37,542 bases of DNA, from assembly GCA_009776805.1 (NCBI GenBank), contig WRNB01000001.1:34288-71829 (forward strand). Direction: 5' to 3'. The notes under the pieces are model-generated. The model was not told the origin of the DNA. It searched no databases and saw only the letters and a list, made by a program, of their open reading frames with translations. This document shows positions 12,960 to 36,351 of the stretch, one piece after another; position 1 is the first letter of the stretch; the number at the start of each line of letters is the position of its first letter. The DNA comes from Candidatus Bathycorpusculum grumuli (GTDB taxonomy: Archaea > Thermoproteota > Bathyarchaeia > Bathyarchaeales > Bathycorpusculaceae). Both the position numbers and the translations under genes were made by a program.

Positions 12960-13339
12960 TGGTAGTTGAAGAAATAAATATCTTTACCCAAACCATCCCC
13001 AGTAGTCAAAAATTTTTAAAAACCAATATACAATCTACATGATCTCAAAGAACATGATAACCCATGTGATTTTGGAAGGTCTATTTGATGAAGATTTTGT
13101 ACTATATTTTTGCCGTCTGCGGCAGTTCGTTCCAAAATGGAGCATACTGATTTTTCGTTTATTCACCGCTTTCAAATATGTTCTTCAAGTGTTTGAGTAG
13201 GGTGTTGTGTGGGTTTTTGGGTTTTGTGTGTTTTGTTAGATTGTAAAGTTGTTAAGTGTGGATGTGTTGGTGGAGGGTTATTATATTGTTGTGATGTGGT
13301 ATCATTGGCAAAAACTATGTTTACAATTATACTAAATTA

Positions 13340-13473
13340 ATGTGGATTGGCATTAAGTTATTTTTCGCATGTTGTCTTTATAATATTTGCTCTTGATATT
13401 AACAATCTCTGTTTTGATGTTTCGCTATGTATGGTGGTAAATGGAGTGTGGTAAAATTTTTAGTCGTTTGTTA
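13340..13473. repeat. Diverged direct repeat, copy 2 (partner 11765-11898)
   Basis: See copy 1. Confidence 0.8.
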
Positions 13474-13564
13474 TGTTTTGTGTTTGATGTTAAGTGTTGT
13501 ATTTGCTGTTTACGCACTTGTATTGATTTTATGGCTTTAAAACTTTTATTTTTATTACGTTTTA

Positions 13565-18770: not shown

Positions 18771-19920
18771 ATATGCCGAAAGAGTTAGACGGTTACCTCC
18801 GTATCTATTTGCTGAAATGGAAAAAATTCAAAAAGAAAAGAAAGCTCAAGGAATTGACTTAATATCTTTGAGTATTGGTGATCCTGATCTTCACCCGCCA
18901 GATTTTGTGATTGAAGCGTTGGCTAAAGAAGTGTCTAACTTGAAGAATCATAATTACTCCTTTAGTCAAGGTGAACCCGATTTTCGAGAAGCAGTGTCAG
19001 TTTGGTGTAAGACCCGTTTTAATGTAGATGTTGCACATGACCAAGTGGTTGCGTTGTTGGGTTCTAAAGAAGGTCTTGCAAATATTGCTCGTGCTTTTAT
19101 TAATCCTGGTGATAAAGTGCTTGTGCCTAATCCATCTTATCCAGTGTATGCTAATGGTAGTACTATTCTTTGTGATGGTACAGTTGTGCCAATGCCGATG
19201 CTTGAAGATAATAATTTCCAACCAGATTTGGATGCAATTGATGTTGATAATGCACGTTTGATGTTTCTTAATTATCCTAATAATCCTACAGCTGCGGTTG
19301 TTGATAAAAAATTCTTAAAAAAAGCTGTAGATTTTGCTAAAGATAATAATATAATTCTTTGTTATGATAATGCGTATTCAGAAATTACGTATGATGACTA
19401 TCGTGCTCCAAGTATTCTTGAAGTTCCAGGTGCTGATAAAGTTGCAATTGAATTTCATTCTTTGTCTAAAACTTTTAATATGACTGGTGATCGAATTGCG
19501 TTTGCTGTTGGTAATAAACAACTTGTTGCTGGTTTAACAAAAATTAAATCTCAAATTGATTCTGGACCGCCAGTTTATATCCAAAAAGTTGCAACCACTG
19601 CTTTAAGTGTTTATAAAAATTGTGGTCAACCAGAATTTTTGCGTAAAAATAATCAACTTTTGCAAGAGCGGCGTGATTTACTTGTTAATACGTTGACAAA
19701 AATTGGTTATCCATGTAAAGTGCCAAAAGCAACTTTTTATGTGTGGGTTAATTGTAAAGGTGATTCAATGAAGTTTGCTGCTAAATTGCTTGATGTTGGT
19801 GTCGCTGTAACTCCAGGTGTTGGTTTTGGTAAATATGGTGAAGGGTATATACGTATTACGTTTACTCGTCCAAAAGAGCGTATCAAAGAAGCTTGTGAGC
19901 GTATCGCAAGTGCTTTCTAA
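18760..19920 (+). CDS. dapL: LL-diaminopimelate aminotransferase
   Basis: PLP aminotransferase with ISLSIGDPDLHPPDFVIEAL and HSLSKTFNMTGDRIAFAVGN. Family plus operon context support DapL. Start MNFEYAE after GGAG. Confidence 0.85.
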   Translation: MNFEYAERVRRLPPYLFAEMEKIQKEKKAQGIDLISLSIGDPDLHPPDFVIEALAKEVSNLKNHNYSFSQGEPDFREAVSVWCKTRFNVDVAHDQVVALLGSKEGLANIARAFINPGDKVLVPNPSYPVYANGSTILCDGTVVPMPMLEDNNFQPDLDAIDVDNARLMFLNYPNNPTAAVVDKKFLKKAVDFAKDNNIILCYDNAYSEITYDDYRAPSILEVPGADKVAIEFHSLSKTFNMTGDRIAFAVGNKQLVAGLTKIKSQIDSGPPVYIQKVATTALSVYKNCGQPEFLRKNNQLLQERRDLLVNTLTKIGYPCKVPKATFYVWVNCKGDSMKFAAKLLDVGVAVTPGVGFGKYGEGYIRITFTRPKERIKEACERIASAF

Positions 19921-20172
19921 CATTTTTTATATGTGTAGATGGTTTTTAAATTGTTAGCTCTATAGTGTTTATGGTGAGGTGAGGTAGGTTTTGTTGGGTT
20001 GTAGGTTTTAGGAGTGTTTCAATATAGTTGGTGTTAAATGTTTTTTTGTTGTGTTGTTTGTTTGTTGGTTGGTTGTTGTGGGTGAAGTAGTGTGGTGTGG
20101 TGGTTGTTTTTTTGTGGTGTGAATTTTTTGTCAAACTGTGTTGTAGTGTTAGTTAGAAATGAATGGTGATAG

Positions 20173-21279
20173 TTACCTTTTGAGGTATGTCACATTTTTT
20201 AGGTATGCCATTTCTATGCCTTCTTTTTCAAAAGCTTCTCTTATAGCTAAATTAATTTCTTGTTGGACTTCAAGGTAACTGCCATAGTCTGGTGCGTGGA
20301 CGAAATAGCTGATGAAGAATTTTAGGCTGTATTCACCAAATTCGTTAAATTTTACAAATTGCGGTGATGCTCCTTTAACGTTTTTTATTATCTCTGTGAT
20401 CATTGGCGAAATTTTTTTAAGCTTCTCATTTGGTGTATCGTAATTTACGCCGATGTTGAAGACTATTCTTCTTTTTTGTAGTTTTCTAAAGTTTCTAATA
20501 TATATTGTAGAGAGTTCTTTGTTTGAAACTACTAATTCTTCGCCTTGTAAGAGTTGGAGTCTTGTGGTTAGGATGCCAATGTTTTTAACTGTTCCACTGT
20601 GTTCATTTATGTAAATGTAGTCGCCTATTTCAAATGGGCGGTCAATGTAAACGTAAATTGCGCTAAATAGATCGCTTAAAGTGCTTTGGAGTGCGAAAGC
20701 TAAGATGATGCCGCTGATTGTTGCATTAGTAGCTATGGATTGCCATAGTCCTGTTAACCCTAACAAATTTGTAATTGTTAAAGCTGCAATAATGAAAATG
20801 ATTGCTGTTATAACTTGTTTGATTACAAACGTTGCATGTTTATTGTTTTTTCCACTTTTTTGCGTTGTTACATCTGCAATTTGATCAATAAAAATTTTTG
20901 CAACTTTTGAAATAGCATATGCTGCAAGCAATATTTGTATAATTAAAAATAAACTATCTAATACATAATTGTACGGTTTAAGAAATGACAATGGAGACAC
21001 TGAAAATCGGATAACTAAAATTCCAATTAAAATTATCATAACCGTTTTCATAGCTTTCGCTATTTTGTCATCCAAGTTTGTCGCAGTTTTTGCTGTCCAA
21101 CGATTAACATATTTGTTAATAATAGTGTACGAAACTAAACCTGCTAATCCAATTATAATGAATATTAAGGTTGAAACCAAAATTTCTGCACTCGTAGCAC
21201 TAATATTTAACGTTTTTTGAATTGTACTACTTAAGCTAGCAATAGCTGAGGCATTAGTGACAGTTTCATCTAAACTCAT
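20173..21279 (-). CDS. MscS-family mechanosensitive channel
   Basis: Several TM helices then MscS core (LQSTLSDLFSAIYVYIDRPFEIGDYIYINEHSGTVKNIGILTTRLQLLQGEELVVSNKEL). Confidence 0.92.
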   Translation of the reverse strand: MSLDETVTNASAIASLSSTIQKTLNISATSAEILVSTLIFIIIGLAGLVSYTIINKYVNRWTAKTATNLDDKIAKAMKTVMIILIGILVIRFSVSPLSFLKPYNYVLDSLFLIIQILLAAYAISKVAKIFIDQIADVTTQKSGKNNKHATFVIKQVITAIIFIIAALTITNLLGLTGLWQSIATNATISGIILAFALQSTLSDLFSAIYVYIDRPFEIGDYIYINEHSGTVKNIGILTTRLQLLQGEELVVSNKELSTIYIRNFRKLQKRRIVFNIGVNYDTPNEKLKKISPMITEIIKNVKGASPQFVKFNEFGEYSLKFFISYFVHAPDYGSYLEVQQEINLAIREAFEKEGIEMAYLKNVTYLKR

Positions 21280-26685: not shown

Positions 26686-27723
26686 CTATTTTCTAGATGT
26701 AAAAAATAAAACTACCCCGCTAATTACTACAATTACAATTACAACACCTACCCACATAATAACCCCACTCCTTAAATCAAACTCATCACCAACTGACTCA
26801 TCAGCGTCAATGAATGTTTCATTATTTCCACCAGTCAAACCAGTATTACCTCCAAAAAATCCTTCACTACCACTATGTCCCGGAGACCAACCCTGACCAG
26901 TATCAGAAGATTCACCAACACTACCCTCAAGCACATTATCACCCTCATTGCTAGCAGTATTACCAGAAATTACCCCACTCTGCCTATCAAAAACACCCAG
27001 CCAACAATGAACACCACCACCATAACTAGCTGTGTTACCAATAATTTTACCACCTGACATGTTAAAAGTCCCTATACTAAACACCCCACCACCCATTCCT
27101 GCAACATTACCTGAAATCTCACCACCAAACATTCGAAAAACACCTGTATTATCCACACCCCCACCAGAGTTAGCGGTGTTATTACAAATCACACCACCAT
27201 GCATCTCAAAAACACCCGAGTTATCCACGCCACCACCACTCAACGCAATCTCAGGAATTGTAGCAGCATTACCTGAAATTTCGCCACTATACATAAAAAG
27301 TTGACCATTTCCGCTAACACCTATCCCTCGACCAAATGTGCCATCAACATGGGTTATGATTATACCATCAAGCCTCAACACTCCGTCTCCAATAATAATG
27401 GTGTTGGAAGCTTCACTAATTAGTTTGTAAAATCCACTATTTTTGTTGCTTGTTAGGGTAATGTCTCCGTGTTCAATGTTAAGTGTTGATGTTAGGGTGA
27501 TGTCGTTGTCTAGGATTATGGTGATAGGTCTATTGTTGGAAGCGTTTTTTGTGGCGTTTTTGAGTTCATTTTCATTTTTAATATGTGTCGTATTTTCCAT
27601 AGTTTCACTGGAGCCATTTGCAATTGTGTTTGTAGGTAGAGAGGAAATTAAAACTGTGATTATTAGAAAAGTTAATAGAAAAATTTTGAGAGAAGTGTTA
27701 AACTTGTTCATATTTGTGGTCAC
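26686..27723 (-). CDS. Membrane-anchored adhesin-like protein with beta-helix repeats
   Basis: Signal region, repeats ISGNxAxxxGGGVxNxGVFxMxGG, C-terminal TM GVIMWVGVVIVIVVISGVVLFFTSRK. Same architecture as 708-1706. Confidence 0.85.
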   Translation of the reverse strand: MTTNMNKFNTSLKIFLLTFLIITVLISSLPTNTIANGSSETMENTTHIKNENELKNATKNASNNRPITIILDNDITLTSTLNIEHGDITLTSNKNSGFYKLISEASNTIIIGDGVLRLDGIIITHVDGTFGRGIGVSGNGQLFMYSGEISGNAATIPEIALSGGGVDNSGVFEMHGGVICNNTANSGGGVDNTGVFRMFGGEISGNVAGMGGGVFSIGTFNMSGGKIIGNTASYGGGVHCWLGVFDRQSGVISGNTASNEGDNVLEGSVGESSDTGQGWSPGHSGSEGFFGGNTGLTGGNNETFIDADESVGDEFDLRSGVIMWVGVVIVIVVISGVVLFFTSRK

Positions 27724-28595: not shown

Positions 28596-28856
28596 TTGTA
28601 TAGTCTTGAGATTGAGGAACAGGTTTCTAAAACTTTTCATAAGCTTTTAAAAAGAGATCGTGTTCAGTTAGAGGCTATAAACAAGAAAATACGTCAAATT
28701 CTGGTTGATCCGTATCAATTTAAACCTTTAAAACATCCATTGGATGGTTTTCGCAGAACACACATTAATTCTTTTGTTCTCATATATTGTGTAGTAGAAA
28801 AGTCATCAACTGTTCAAATTGTGCAATACACCCACCATGATAAAGCATACGTTTAA
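28596..28856 (+). CDS. RelE/ParE-family toxin-like protein
   Basis: SLEIEEQVSKTFHKLLKRDRVQLEAINKKIRQILVDPYQFKPLKHPLDGFRRTHINSFVLIYCV; TTG start; 7 nt after the antitoxin stop. Confidence 0.75.
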   Translation: MYSLEIEEQVSKTFHKLLKRDRVQLEAINKKIRQILVDPYQFKPLKHPLDGFRRTHINSFVLIYCVVEKSSTVQIVQYTHHDKAYV

Positions 28857-29179
28857 ACTATCTGCTCATTTTTGTCTCTAGTATCCCACACACGAGAAAC
28901 GCACGAAAAAACAGTCACCACCAAACACCAACCAATAAACCCAAAAAACACAAACAAAAAAACTAAAAAGACAAAACCTGCCCCAAATACCCACCAAGAT
29001 TACAACAAAAACAAAACAACACCAACACAAACAAACACAAAAAACTCAAAAACAACCAACAAAACACACCCAAAATACAAAACACACCACAACCCAACAC
29101 CCAACAACAATCCACCCTAAAAACAACAACCAACCACCAACAAAAACACTCAACACACCAACAACCCTAACAACCAAAA

Positions 29180-29890
29180 CAACCTCGCTTGCATTTAATG
29201 GTAAGCTGCTGATGAAGTAGCGTTTTTCTTTGGTGGTTGCTCCATTTTTAGATGTTGTGGTGCGTTGTACCATAACTATGGATCGTAAATCCTTCCATTT
29301 GTTTTTTTGTGTTAAGGTTTTTATTTTGGTGCTTTGCCAATACTTCCTAATCTCCAGCCTCGAGCTTTTTCTTCGGTTTTGTGGTATGCGCGTTTTGTTA
29401 GAAATTGTGGGTTTGAAAACAGTGTTTGTACAGCTTTATGGAAATGTTTGTGATTAGTCTTCAAAGTTAAAGCGTATTGTCCGTCTTTTTTGCGAATTAG
29501 TGAAACGATGTTTCGTTGGGTTGTCATGGCGTCAGTGGTAATTATGTAATTTTTTATATTAAAACGGTTAATTAAATTTGGTATGGCAGTTATTTTTTTT
29601 GATTTATTTTTGGTAAGTTTTTGGCATAAACTAAAACTGTTTTCGTTTATCATGTCAACAATGTGGTTTGGGGTTTGTGTTGGGGTTTGTGTTCCGCATT
29701 GAGTTTTGTCGTCTTTGTTTAAAGGTTTTAAGAGTTTTTCTTCTTCGCCACTATTTAGGAGTTTGTTGAATTCTTTTTGTAGGTTGTCAAAATATTTTTT
29801 TATTATGGTAAGGTGCGTTTGGTGGTTTGGGGTTTGTGTTGGGGTGAGTTTTTGTAGAGTTTGTTTGTGTTTTTTTGTGAAGTATTTCAT
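29180..29890 (-). pseudogene. ISAs1-family transposase relic
   Basis: KKITAIPNLINRFNIKNYIITTDAMTTQRNIVSLIRKKDGQYALTLKTNHKHFHKAV matches the ISAs1 core pattern. C-terminal piece in a second ORF (TTKEKRYFISSLPLNA). Frameshift between them and N-terminal domain mostly missing. Confidence 0.8.
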
Positions 29891-30435
29891 TTTTTTGAAG
29901 TTGTTTGTGTTGTCTGTGGTGGTGATTAGTGTTATTGTTATAGTTTGTTTTGTTTGTGTTTTGTTTTTTCTTGTTGGTGTGTGTTGGTGATTGTTTTGTT
30001 GTGTTTTGTGTGTTTTGTGTGTTTTGCGTGTGATGTATTTGTGTTGATTGTTTATGAATTATTTGTTATCTTATATGTTGAGCAATTGTATTTGATGAAT
30101 AATGTGGGTTTATTTGTGTTTTTTGTGTTTGTTGTTTGTTGGGGTTTTTGTTGTTTGTAAACGATTTGTTTAACTTTCATACGTTCTACGTGGTCTTTCC
30201 ACTTTTTTATTGAAATCAATTTTTTTGATTCAGCCGATAGTAACATCGCTATTTGCATGTAGAGACTGTGTCAAATTATTATAGGTGTTCTCAAAATCAG
30301 CTATCCGTTCAGGATTGTTTAACATCCAATAGAAATCAAAACTTTCTTCAACTGAACTAACACACAAAAGTAACTTGCAACAAAGAAAGATTTAGATATT
30401 GTTGAGTTGTATGTGAGCTGATAAGTGGGATTTCA

Positions 30436-31432: not shown

Positions 31433-31700
31433 TCAGATTGATTTCTACGTTAGATATTTCGAAGATAAAGTAAAATTGCCAGAGGACAATCTAACAATTG
31501 GGATTATTTTCTGTGCAGATAAAAATGATACGATGGTAAAATATTCGGTGTTGTCTGTTAATGAGAAATTATTCGCTTCAAAGTACATGTTTTATCTGCC
31601 GACAGAGGAAGAACTAAAACGTGAGTTAGAGCGTGAACGTGAGCTTATTGAGCGGCAAGCTGATTTGAATACAGTTAAGGCTGATGGTATAGCACATTGA
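31404..31700 (+). pseudogene. Second, different DUF1016/YhcG C-terminal fragment
   Basis: HNIGQIDFYVRYFEDKVKLPEDNLTIGIIFCADKNDTMVKYSVLSVNEKLFASKYMFYLPTEEELKRELERERE. Confidence 0.8.
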
Positions 31701-31743
31701 TTTTTTATAGGCGATTGCTATAGTGTAATCACGTGATAATGTC

Positions 31744-32662
31744 TTGGCTAAACCGATATCAAACGACAAACGAGCCGCCATCGTCAAACATATGCAAAAA
31801 GGAAAAAACACAAAAGAAATAGCAGAATGGCTACTCGTCAGCACACGAACAGTAGAACGCATCTGGCAAAAATACAAAAAACAAGGCTACTACGAACCCG
31901 AACCACTAAACTGCGGACGAAAACCCCTAGTCAACACAACAACCATGGACAAAGTAGTAGAAAAAATCCAAGAACAACCAGACATAACACTCCAAGAACT
32001 AATAGACACATTCAAGTTACCCATAAGTCAATCTGCCCTCTGCAGACGCCTACGCAAACTGGGACTAACTTTTGAAAAAAGAATCTCCATCCAAACAAAC
32101 AAAAAACTCCAAAAGTAATAGAAGCACGCACAACCTATCGTAAAACACAACAAGAACTAAACACTTCAACCACTTATTGGCTTGATGAAAGCAGTGCTAA
32201 TTGTGGCATGACACGTCTTTATGGTAGGTCTTTTTCGCATGAACGTGTGGATGATTATGTGTCTGATGTGCGTTTTGAGTGTATTTCAATTGTTGGTGTG
32301 TTGGGTTTAGAGGGGGTTGTGGCTTTTTTGTTGTTTAAGGGTTCTTTGAATGGTTGGTTGTTTGGTGAGTATGTAAAGTATTGTCTTGTGTCAGTTATGA
32401 AGTGTGGTGAGTGTTGGTTTTGGGTAATTTTTCGGTTTATAAGGTTAGGGGTGTGTTGGATTATTTGGTTTTGTTGGGTGTGAAAATTGTGTTTTTGGTT
32501 GTGTATTTTTCTGATTTTTATCCTGTAGTGTTTGTTTGGTCAAAAATTAAGGTGTATTTGTGTAAGGTGGAGGTTAGAGCTGTTGTTGTTTCAGAAGTAT
32601 TAGTTACGATAACTGGTGCTGATGTTGAAGGTTGGGTTAAACACTGTGGTTATCGACTATGA
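31744..32662 (+). pseudogene. IS630-family transposase relic
   Basis: N-terminal HTH (KHMQKGKNTKEIAEWLLVSTRTVERIWQKYKKQGYYEPEPLNCGRKP); then in other frames WLDESSANCGMTRLYGRSFSHERV, GNFSVYKVRGVLDYLVLLGVKIVFL, FSDFYPVVFVWSKIKVYL, DVEGWVKHCGY. Confidence 0.88.
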
Positions 32663-32687
32663 AAAGTCAAACTGCTATGGCATGTTA

Positions 32688-33705: not shown

Positions 33706-35049
33706 TTACTGTTTTACTATCCAACGTCCACCTCTTGCAGAGCCTACACGTTCAATCAGCCCTAACTCTTTTAGCGTGGAAATGTGAGCCTGTACATTAC
33801 GTGGAGCAATTCCTATTTCTTTAGCTAACATTTTTGCAGTAATTTTCGGATTAGCCCGGATTAGTTCAAAAATTTTAGCTTGCAAAACCGTTATACCCTT
33901 ATTTTCTACGATGCTTTCTACGATGCTTTCTACGATGCTTTCTACGATGCTGTTATTGGTGTTAAAACCAATCATTACCTCATTTGGTCGTACACGATAG
34001 AACGGTTCAGACATGTTTTGTTCTTTACAGGCCTCAAGTATCTTTTCAATACCGCGTCCCCAAGCCTCAATCTGTCCAGAGCGGAAAAAAGTGTTTGCAA
34101 CCAAGGGATTATACGGCTTTGAAGTATGAGCGGCAAACAAGTCTTCAATTGTCCAGTTTTCGGGTAATTTGCCATCGTTGTAAATTAGTACCTTGTCTTT
34201 GTAGATGTGTATGTGAATTGGGTTGCCTGTGCTGTAATCTTTGTGAACAATTGCATTTAACACTGCTTCACGAAATGCTGAGCGTGGCACAGGGTATGTT
34301 TCTATTCGGTGAATGCCTTTGTAGCTGATGGTTCCTTTGAAGTATTTGAGGTACACTAAATCAACGACTTTATCGGCCATTGTTATCAGTGGACCGTGGA
34401 TTTCGTCTTGATAACTCAAATCTGCTGTGGTCTTGAAATAGCCAATTTTAACTGATGTGCCCATTACATATTGTTCGGGGTTTTGGTGAAACAGCATAAT
34501 TGCCGCTCGTTTAAGGTAATCGGGTTCGGTTAGATTCAGATTGTCCAGAAGCATTTTATCACTTATGCGAAGATCAGCCTCAGTCATTTTGTTGCTGTCG
34601 ATGGCCATTTTTCTAAACGCTTTGAATGCGTCGCTTTCGAAATCTTCAAATTTAACATGAGGTATGGGAACGCCGTCCCAAGTTTTACCCAGAGTCTTGA
34701 GCATGAATGTGTCGAGTTGGGTGCCGTTAAGTTCTTGGGTTGTTGTTCCTGAGCGGATATAGTATTTGCCATTGCAGCTTACTGGGAAGGTGTATTTTTG
34801 AACGGTTATAACGATGTACTGTTTACCGTTTAGTTGTCGTAATTCAATAGTTGGTATGATTCCCATGGTGCTTCGGGTTTTGTTTGGCAGGTCTTCTAAG
34901 AGTTTTTTTGGGTTAGAAACTCCGATGATTTCTCCGTTGTTCTGACGGCCAATTTCTAGTACACCGCCGTCTGCGTTTGCAAAACCGCAAATTGTGTTTA
35001 GGTATTTATCATGCCAAGTTTGTTTCCATTCAAGATTATGTGTTTCCAT
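33706..35049 (-). CDS. AlbA_2 (schlafen-like) ATP-binding regulator with C-terminal wHTH
   Basis: ETHNLEWKQTWHDKYLNTICGFANADGGVLEIGRQNNGEIIGVSNPKKLLEDLPNK; HKDYSTGNPIHIHIYKDKVLIYNDGKLPENWT; wHTH at the C-terminus. Confidence 0.9.
   Translation of the reverse strand: METHNLEWKQTWHDKYLNTICGFANADGGVLEIGRQNNGEIIGVSNPKKLLEDLPNKTRSTMGIIPTIELRQLNGKQYIVITVQKYTFPVSCNGKYYIRSGTTTQELNGTQLDTFMLKTLGKTWDGVPIPHVKFEDFESDAFKAFRKMAIDSNKMTEADLRISDKMLLDNLNLTEPDYLKRAAIMLFHQNPEQYVMGTSVKIGYFKTTADLSYQDEIHGPLITMADKVVDLVYLKYFKGTISYKGIHRIETYPVPRSAFREAVLNAIVHKDYSTGNPIHIHIYKDKVLIYNDGKLPENWTIEDLFAAHTSKPYNPLVANTFFRSGQIEAWGRGIEKILEACKEQNMSEPFYRVRPNEVMIGFNTNNSIVESIVESIVESIVENKGITVLQAKIFELIRANPKITAKMLAKEIGIAPRNVQAHISTLKELGLIERVGSARGGRWIVKQ
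33904..33951. repeat. 12-bp tandem repeat x4 (TTCTACGATGCT), encodes SIVE linker repeats
   Basis: Four perfect copies counted; translated on minus as SIVESIVESIVESIVE. Confidence 0.95.
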
Positions 35050-35559
35050 CGTTACACCTCCAGTCGTTATTTGAGTAATGTTAAATGCAATAGTTCACTG
35101 GTTAATCAATATATTTTTTTCTCAATAACCACTCTATACATTTGGTATTTTGTGGGTTAAATTCTGTGAAAGTTGTAGAATTATTGTTTGTTTTGTTTTC
35201 GCCTTAGTCACGGTAGGGAATTATTGAGGTGATTCTTTGAATTTGTAAGAACGTGTTGTGTTAGACAGGTTTTGGGGGTTTTAAATACTTCTGGATATTG
35301 GTAGGGTGCTTCCTTTGTGGAACTCTTGTTTGTTGATTGCTGGCTGGCATTACGGCATATTTAACGTCCATGGGAAAAACCCGTTTTTCTTCTCAGTGTA
35401 AACTCTATTTGTTGTCAAAAATTCTAAAAATCAAAAACGGGAAAACACTAAAAACAGCTTATTTGCACAAAACACAGCGGGAAAACACCAGCAAACAACA
35501 AACAAACCAATAACTGCGGCCAATACAATTAAACGAGCCTAAAACAAACCAGAAAAAAG

Positions 35560-36351
35560 CAAGCGTAAAATGGGAAAACAGAAAAACAAACAACAACAAA
35601 CAAGAAAACGCCAAAAACAATGTATTTACGTAAAATGTAGTGGGAAAACACTGACAAACATAAAAACAAACCCAAATCAACCAATACACTTCTACAAATC
35701 CAAATCACCCACATTCCTATACAACTATACCAAACAATACACCTACCACAGTCAACCGACAAGATTCCACAGAAGCACAAACAACCCGAGTGGCCACTTT
35801 TCTACAGTTGCTCAAAGAAACTCATGTGTGACCTGGTGAAATCTGGCATTGTATTGCAGATGACTTTGATTTTGAAACCAATACTGTAACTATTACTCCT
35901 GAGAAAGGTAGTAATCCGCGTATTTTTAATATGAGTCAAAAACTTCTGGGTATGTTGTATAATTTGCCTAAAGATTACGGGAAATGTATGTTTGCTACGC
36001 TTGAGATGAAGCTTGATTATTTTGGACAAGCTATGAGAAGCAACGTAACCGTTTAGCTGTTAAACTGAATAATCCGTGTATAAAGAAAATTATGTTTAAG
36101 ACTTTGTGAACTTGGGGTGGTACTTATGATTATCATAAGGCTAAAGATCTGCTTTACGTTATGAAACGGCTTGGGCACAAAAATTTGAAGAATATTTTGA
36201 TTTATATTTAGTTGGAAGAGGTGTTGTTTAAGGGTGAAGTTGATTATGTTTCTAAGGTTGTTAAGTCTGAGGTGTGTGTTTTGATTGAGGTTGGTTTTGA
36301 TTTTGTGTGTGATTTTGATGGGCATAATTTGTTCCGGAAAAAGAAGTGTTA
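35560..36351 (+). pseudogene. Tyrosine recombinase (XerC/D-type, archaeal) relic
   Basis: VATFLQLLKETHV*...DFDFETNTVTITPEKGSNPRIFNMSQKLLGMLYNLPK; then KQRNRLAVKLNNPCIKKIMFKTL*TWGGTYDYHKAKDLLYVMKRLGHKNLKNILIYI*LEE. Several frameshifts/stops. The conserved R...HxLGH-type box is partly destroyed. Confidence 0.85.

Follow-up and report, generated by a model that had tools for sequence, protein, structure and literature searches.

Mobile elements of 'Ca. Termiticorpusculum' are compositional dipoles that switch from A/C to G/T near the element midpoint

The mobile elements of 'Ca. Termiticorpusculum', a genus of termite-gut Bathyarchaeia, are compositional dipoles, in intact and dead copies alike. 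In each strand of these elements the 5' half is rich in A and C and the 3' half is rich in G and T, and the switch between them lies near the geometric midpoint. Strand-biased mutation is normally linked to chromosome replication or transcription. No description of element-centred dipoles was found in the open-licence literature, and as far as could be checked this element-centred mutation pattern is new. The element described first lies in a 37,542-nucleotide stretch of contig WRNB01000001.1, hereafter the window. The source genome, of 2,287,482 bases in 173 contigs, matches in both numbers the MAG Th196P4_bin19 (WRNB00000000), which was obtained from Termes hospes and belongs to phylotype 4 of 'Ca. 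Termiticorpusculum', with 35.6% G+C and a coding density of 74.9%, the lowest in the published table (PMC7886697, Table 1).

Results

The window carries an IS630-family relic of 988 bp on the plus strand (31690-32677; midpoint 32183.5), bounded by TATAGCA-type terminal inverted repeats. The left repeat (31690-31717, plus strand) and the right repeat (32650-32677, minus strand), detected by an inverted-repeat search (TAGCACATTGATTTTTTATAGGCGATTG versus TAGCAGTTTGACTTTTCATAGTCGATAA), match at 22 of 28 bases, and the same search gave a perfect match (28/28) for the relative L217. The ends of the window relic read TATAGCA, with the TA target kept on the left and TG on the right. The range given in the preliminary description, 31744-32662, fell slightly short of this repeat-bounded element. 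The open, A/C-rich orfA (31744-32118, plus strand) encodes the helix-turn-helix DNA-binding part of the transposase (Pfam HTH_28, HTH_23 and HTH_Tnp_IS630). This half-length ORF scored 23.7 against PF01710 (cut-off 21.3) and 51 bits against NF033545, below the cut-off of 100; the intact IS630 copy L043 scored 122.8 against NF033545 and 70.3 against PF13358. The catalytic orfB (plus strand) is degenerate: as aligned to the intact L205 and the near-intact L201, its start lies at 32178-32483 and its end, past a frameshift, at 32411-32662.

The open frame of the A/C half and the retained first catalytic Asp (WLDESS, 32178-32195) were confirmed, as were the two other motifs first noticed, GNFSVYK (32423-32443) and VVYFSDFYPVV (32498-32530), in which the second Asp is Gly and the Glu is Val. 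Since the DDE triad is incomplete, with the first Asp alone remaining, the window copy is a relic and no active member of its family. The Asp-to-Gly change is present as described, but it is also found in L202 from another genome; of the Pro-to-Val changes in the VVYFSDFYPVV motif the first alone is real, the native motif of the subgroup being PVYSPDFNxxE (L201, L202, L205). Intact relatives, too, have two ORFs, orfB lying in the -1 frame, and the stop at 32118 alone is no sign of decay; the window orfB has one further frameshift beyond this arrangement. The helix-turn-helix orfA, the DDE orfB in the -1 frame, the TATAGCA inverted repeats and the length of about 1 kb are those of IS630 (IS630/Tc1/mariner superfamily). 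The relic is an ordinary IS630 element, and the unusual part is its mutation pattern.

The base composition of the relic flips in its middle. The left half (31690-32174) has a G+T content of 0.32 (A 0.43, C 0.25, G 0.15, T 0.18) and the right half (32175-32677) one of 0.74 (A 0.19, C 0.07, G 0.31, T 0.43), roughly the reverse complement of the left. The six G+T counts per 60 nucleotides on which the flip was first noticed are exact (13 at 31921, 19 at 31981, 13 at 32101, 31 at 32161, 44 at 32221 and 51 at 32281). The maximum-likelihood change point within the repeat-bounded element is 32174 (keto content 0.32 to 0.74) with a likelihood ratio of 184, indicating that the flip is not due to chance. 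This change point is within 10 bp of the midpoint; the boundary first placed near 32190 is a real break, but it marks the midpoint of the element and no site-specific feature of the insertion.

The same flip was observed in relatives of the relic. All six copies of its IS630 subgroup examined in the source genome run from A/C to G/T, and so do the IS630 copies of other genus members searched. For two intact, non-identical IS630-type copies of the source genome, L043 (18601-17457) and L098 (11593-12720), third-position G/T rises from 0.10 and 0.13 over orfA to 0.98 in orfB, indicating that the shift is largely synonymous. In the averaged profile of 28 IS630 copies the keto content rises from 0.28 to 0.69 inside the element, the flanks staying near 0.5, and the 3' half exceeds the 5' half in keto content in all 26 copies with both halves readable. 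Because intact copies across the genus carry the flip, the composition break is ancestral to the elements; the strand-biased A/C-to-G/T substitution proposed in the preliminary description is real and strong, but is not purely a decay following insertion. Unlike the genus copies, IS630 elements are flat in seven phylum genomes outside the genus (G277, G325, G243, G319, G136, G236 and G295), and a mild keto rise was seen in two other genomes, G211 and G172. An intact IS630-like gene is also flat in the genus member G023, which has both EndoV and UDG and whose MAG is listed at 6% contamination, and the repeat-bounded copy L218 is without the dipole, the dipole of one copy having been lost.

Substitutions on the window lineage were tabulated on both sides of the break, as the preliminary description had suggested, with polarity taken from the majority of L201, L202, L203 and L228 and therefore approximate. 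The right half is biased as expected, amino-to-keto changes being 21/92 against 3/251 for keto-to-amino (Fisher p 1.6e-10), with extra C>T, A>G and A>T. The left half is mutated in the mirror direction, with extra G>A and T>C (keto-to-amino 19/139 against amino-to-keto 4/267; Fisher p 1.3e-6), which overturns the claim that the G/T half alone was affected. Biased substitution thus continued on the window lineage, mirror-wise in both halves, after the ancestral break. The L201 and L203 lineages move in the opposite way, toward less dipole, and those of L202 and L228 show no net drift. The same signature extends across the source genome: in repeat pairs drawn from 1.65 Mb it falls on one strand, and transitions run in one direction at ratios of up to 134:4 in single pairs (p 9e-35). 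For 82 asymmetric pairs the rates were C>T 30.4%, A>G 17.9% and A>T 6.2%, against 3.6% for the reverse G>A and 2.3% for T>C; the pairs were chosen for their asymmetry, and the rates describe the spectrum and not the frequency of the process. The bias is mostly made up of transitions and A>T, C>G being rare. Strand-specific A>G and C>T changes with a minority of A>T underlie the dipole and are ongoing in individual copies.

Other transposon families were named by Pfam (IS481/rve, IS110, ISAzo13, IS91, DUF772, IS5-like, IS1 and UPF0236), the name ISAs1 reflecting sequence resemblance alone. The flip was also found in IS481, IS5 and ISAzo13 elements, and was less clean in ISAs1, IS1 and UPF0236 copies. 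In a set of 16 repeat-bounded dipolar elements, small and IS630-heavy (IS630 0.99-1.23 kb, IS481 1.02 kb with perfect repeats, ISAzo13 1.28 kb and IS5 0.85 kb), the change point lies at 0.476 +- 0.074 of the element length, IS630 having its ORF junction near the middle as well. The set was picked by end-repeat quality and a defined element; L218 was left out, and so were the ISAs1-like copies because their apparent end repeats are unreliable. These 16 elements span 850-1284 bp with differing gene layouts, and the midpoint switch appears in single-ORF and two-ORF types.

In the ISAs1-like copies the switch is off-centre and its place varies between copies. The window contains one such relic of the same polarity (29321-29890, minus strand; no Pfam match), around which (28801-30300) the sharpest switch in the window is located, G+T on the plus strand rising from 0.19 near 28950 to 0.87 near 30000. 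A near-identical G/T block (0.97) of about 300 bp, from the C-terminal part, is common to three ISAs1-like copies of the genome. The IS91-type relic L059 (9817-11000) is almost monopolar in G/T (up to 1.00), unlike the two-sided DDE elements, as a single case. Generic queries for IS200/IS605 elements, as a single-strand control, gave none in 1.65 Mb of the source genome. A dipolar, multi-copy frame of 385 codons with no Pfam match (L082, 14897-16051, with relatives in L099, L084 and L045) may be an undescribed mobile element.

Compositional patches also exist outside the recognised elements. Keto content in 300-bp windows has a standard deviation of 0.106 in the source genome, 7% of the windows being below 0.3 or above 0.7, and the patches fade out within about 1 kb. 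Small samples (40-80 kb per genome) from G016, G011, G007, G033 and G048 gave 0.058-0.071 and almost no extreme windows. Host genes carry kilobase keto patches of either polarity, indicating that mobility cannot be the sole source of the bias; two layers can be told apart, patches tied to location and a dipole inherent to the elements. Third-position G/T differs by 0.3-0.55 between the halves, in either direction, in glyA (L029, 4535-5869) and the genes for lipoate ligase (L051, 9024-9848) and CTP synthase (L053, 5219-6889). For glyA it changes from 0.08 to 0.54 in the source genome, and is 0.04-0.20 in G020 and G027 and about 0.2-0.5 in most other members. Gene direction was ruled out as a cause, the keto meta-profiles being flat around gene starts and stops.

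Several further features of the window were recorded. Isolated stretches strongly rich in either G/T or A/C (2101-2700, 13051-13500, 19801-20250 and 35401-35850) are possibly unrecognised element relics. Two minus-strand proteins without Pfam match (26686-27723 and 708-1706) have repeated GGGV/SGNTA motifs similar to adhesin repeats of the polymorphic outer-membrane type, and the composition of the former also shifts in mid-gene. An intact 447-codon ORF (33706-35049, minus strand) contains repeated VESI units near its C-terminus, with a TTTCTACGATGC repeat at about 33915-33950.

The genes for repair of deaminated bases were compared among genus members. Such repair in archaea is described as beginning with UDG, EndoV or EndoQ (PMC5045986). 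UDG gave no match in the source genome (G000) and is present in 28 of 32 genus members, being absent from G000, G022, G026 and G028. EndoV was not found in G000 either; it is intact in 12 genomes, and no dipolar IS630 copy occurs in any of them. In G012 (C26, 7790-8342) the EndoV gene is fragmented and interrupted by stop codons, apparently a loss under way. G000 retains an EndoQ-like gene, which scores below the family cut-off (TIGR00375, the EndoQ family). Loss of EndoV and UDG is not sufficient, because G026 has a match to neither and yet its glyA locus is flat, and the loss of both is confounded with phylogeny. UDG loss was rejected as the cause of the C component, since UDG-bearing genomes show similar C depletion and dipole, and the genus members gave no signal for a lack of NucS, additional DinB or an unusual cytidine deaminase.

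Discussion

The dipoles point to a mutation process that strikes both strands of mobile DNA in mirror image. An order of A/C on the left and G/T on the right survives reverse complementing, so that a process treating both ends alike gives the same polarity for any gene direction, and the mirror symmetry about the midpoint together with the stop at the element ends suggests a process that works from both ends of the element. Our tentative preference, put at somewhat below an even chance, is that the 3' half of each strand is deaminated in a strand-specific way while the element is mobile, and that loss of repair perhaps contributes. The element would be free as linear DNA, and resection of its 5' ends would turn the 3' half of each strand into single-stranded DNA; exposed A and C would deaminate to hypoxanthine, read as G, and uracil, read as T, and abasic bypass would give some A>T. 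The element would then be made double-stranded again, and the scars would remain for want of deamination repair. The window relic would be an ordinary IS630 pushed to the extreme by such exposure and then lost through the frameshift and the catalytic changes. Whether the mobile elements of the genus pass through an intermediate with the 3' half of each strand exposed and its A and C mutated, so that a mirror-image scar results from each transposition and the elements come to be half A/C and half G/T, is a bolder proposal that we regard as possible but rather doubtful.

Exposure of the 3' halves with deamination of A and C fits the polarity, the midpoint, the element boundary and the spectrum. 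It predicts that cut-and-paste elements are dipolar and single-strand movers monopolar; elements of the IS91 type are expected to move as one strand, and the almost monopolar relic counts in its favour, albeit with one example. Against it count the off-centre switches of ISAs1, the dipole loss in L218, the drift of L201 and L203 toward less dipole, and the flanks of IS630, which lack the opposite dipole that a break at the donor site should leave. The lack of UDG in G000 and of intact EndoV where IS630 copies are dipolar speaks for it, but the confounding with phylogeny, the flat glyA locus of G026, the retained EndoQ-like gene, the similar C depletion of UDG-bearing genomes and the patches in host genes weigh against it.

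Mirror symmetry and midpoint are equally accounted for by errors in gap-filling, in which a wobble-prone polymerase leaves G.T and T.T mispairs in each half and the tracts meet in mid-element. A>G, A>T and C>T are the G.T and T.T mispairs of one nascent strand, and there is a Y-family polymerase. If synthesis simply ran inward from the flanks, however, G/T would be enriched in the wrong halves, so that synthesis outward from the centre is needed, and DinB and NucS occur throughout the genus, including where no dipole is seen; we consider this account unlikely. A slightly lower probability is given to transcription-coupled asymmetry, with divergent transcripts from mid-element exposing opposite strands in the two halves, sense in the right one and antisense in the left. 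Archaeal transposons are known to have sense and antisense transcripts, and any element carrying a divergent promoter inside it would be expected to have the same polarity, but the genome-wide keto content is independent of gene direction and of distance to gene ends, and the midpoint is the same in elements with one ORF and with two, across different families.

Selection for A/C-only and G/T-only halves, for instance against internal promoters or for a hairpin between the halves, is improbable. The pattern is kept in intact elements, and the roughly complementary halves fold somewhat more stably than local shuffles (z=-3.0), but the halves are linked by short imperfect inverted repeats only, IS630s outside the genus lack the dipole, and relics and repeat copies still diverge in the same direction, which suggests dead copies gaining substitutions; hairpin selection is a weak explanation. 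Strand-biased decay of the window copy after insertion, confined to the right of about 32190 as first proposed, agrees with the right-half bias on its lineage (21/92 versus 3/251) but is refuted as a complete account by the break in intact relatives and the mirror-wise mutation of the left half, and is very improbable. Least probable of all is a targeted mutator of a known type (repeat-induced point mutation, a cytosine deaminase like APOBEC, or a diversity-generating retroelement): the repeats are densely mutated in a strand-coordinated way, but repeat-induced point mutation and APOBEC alter C only and diversity-generating reverse transcriptases A only, whereas here A>G (18%) and A>T (6%) stand beside C>T (30%), the commonest change, and G000, like almost every genus member, has a single PF00383 match.

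The same-strand excess of C>T and A>G is that of a strand-coordinated deamination cluster, and kataegis at resected breaks likewise shows clustered same-strand deamination-type changes with one strand-switch point. In contrast to kataegis, A>G and C>T occur together here, the changes are inherited and repeated over evolutionary time and centred on mobile elements, and the polarity is the reverse of what a chromosomal break should produce around it. The GC/keto skew of replication origins has the same left-to-right switch from A/C to G/T and the same mutational direction, but the dipoles are on a scale of about 1 kb, element-bounded and in many copies. Origin skew has one or a few switches; a global origin-like polarity was ruled out by the 32 upward and 35 downward keto jumps in 0.79 Mb, both signs being equally common. 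Fungal repeat-induced point mutation also mutates repeats heavily, but it converts C to T only and is not element-centred, whereas adenines are changed here too.

If true, a bias anchored at the midpoint would be a fossil record of DNA exposure during mobility, legible from sequence alone, and mobility-linked hypermutation would be a process not previously described and recognisable by composition alone. The source genome may also serve as a natural test of the loss of hypoxanthine and uracil repair in an archaeon. For annotation of such genomes, caution is required, as G/T-rich or A/C-rich ORFs of low similarity can be mutated transposases.
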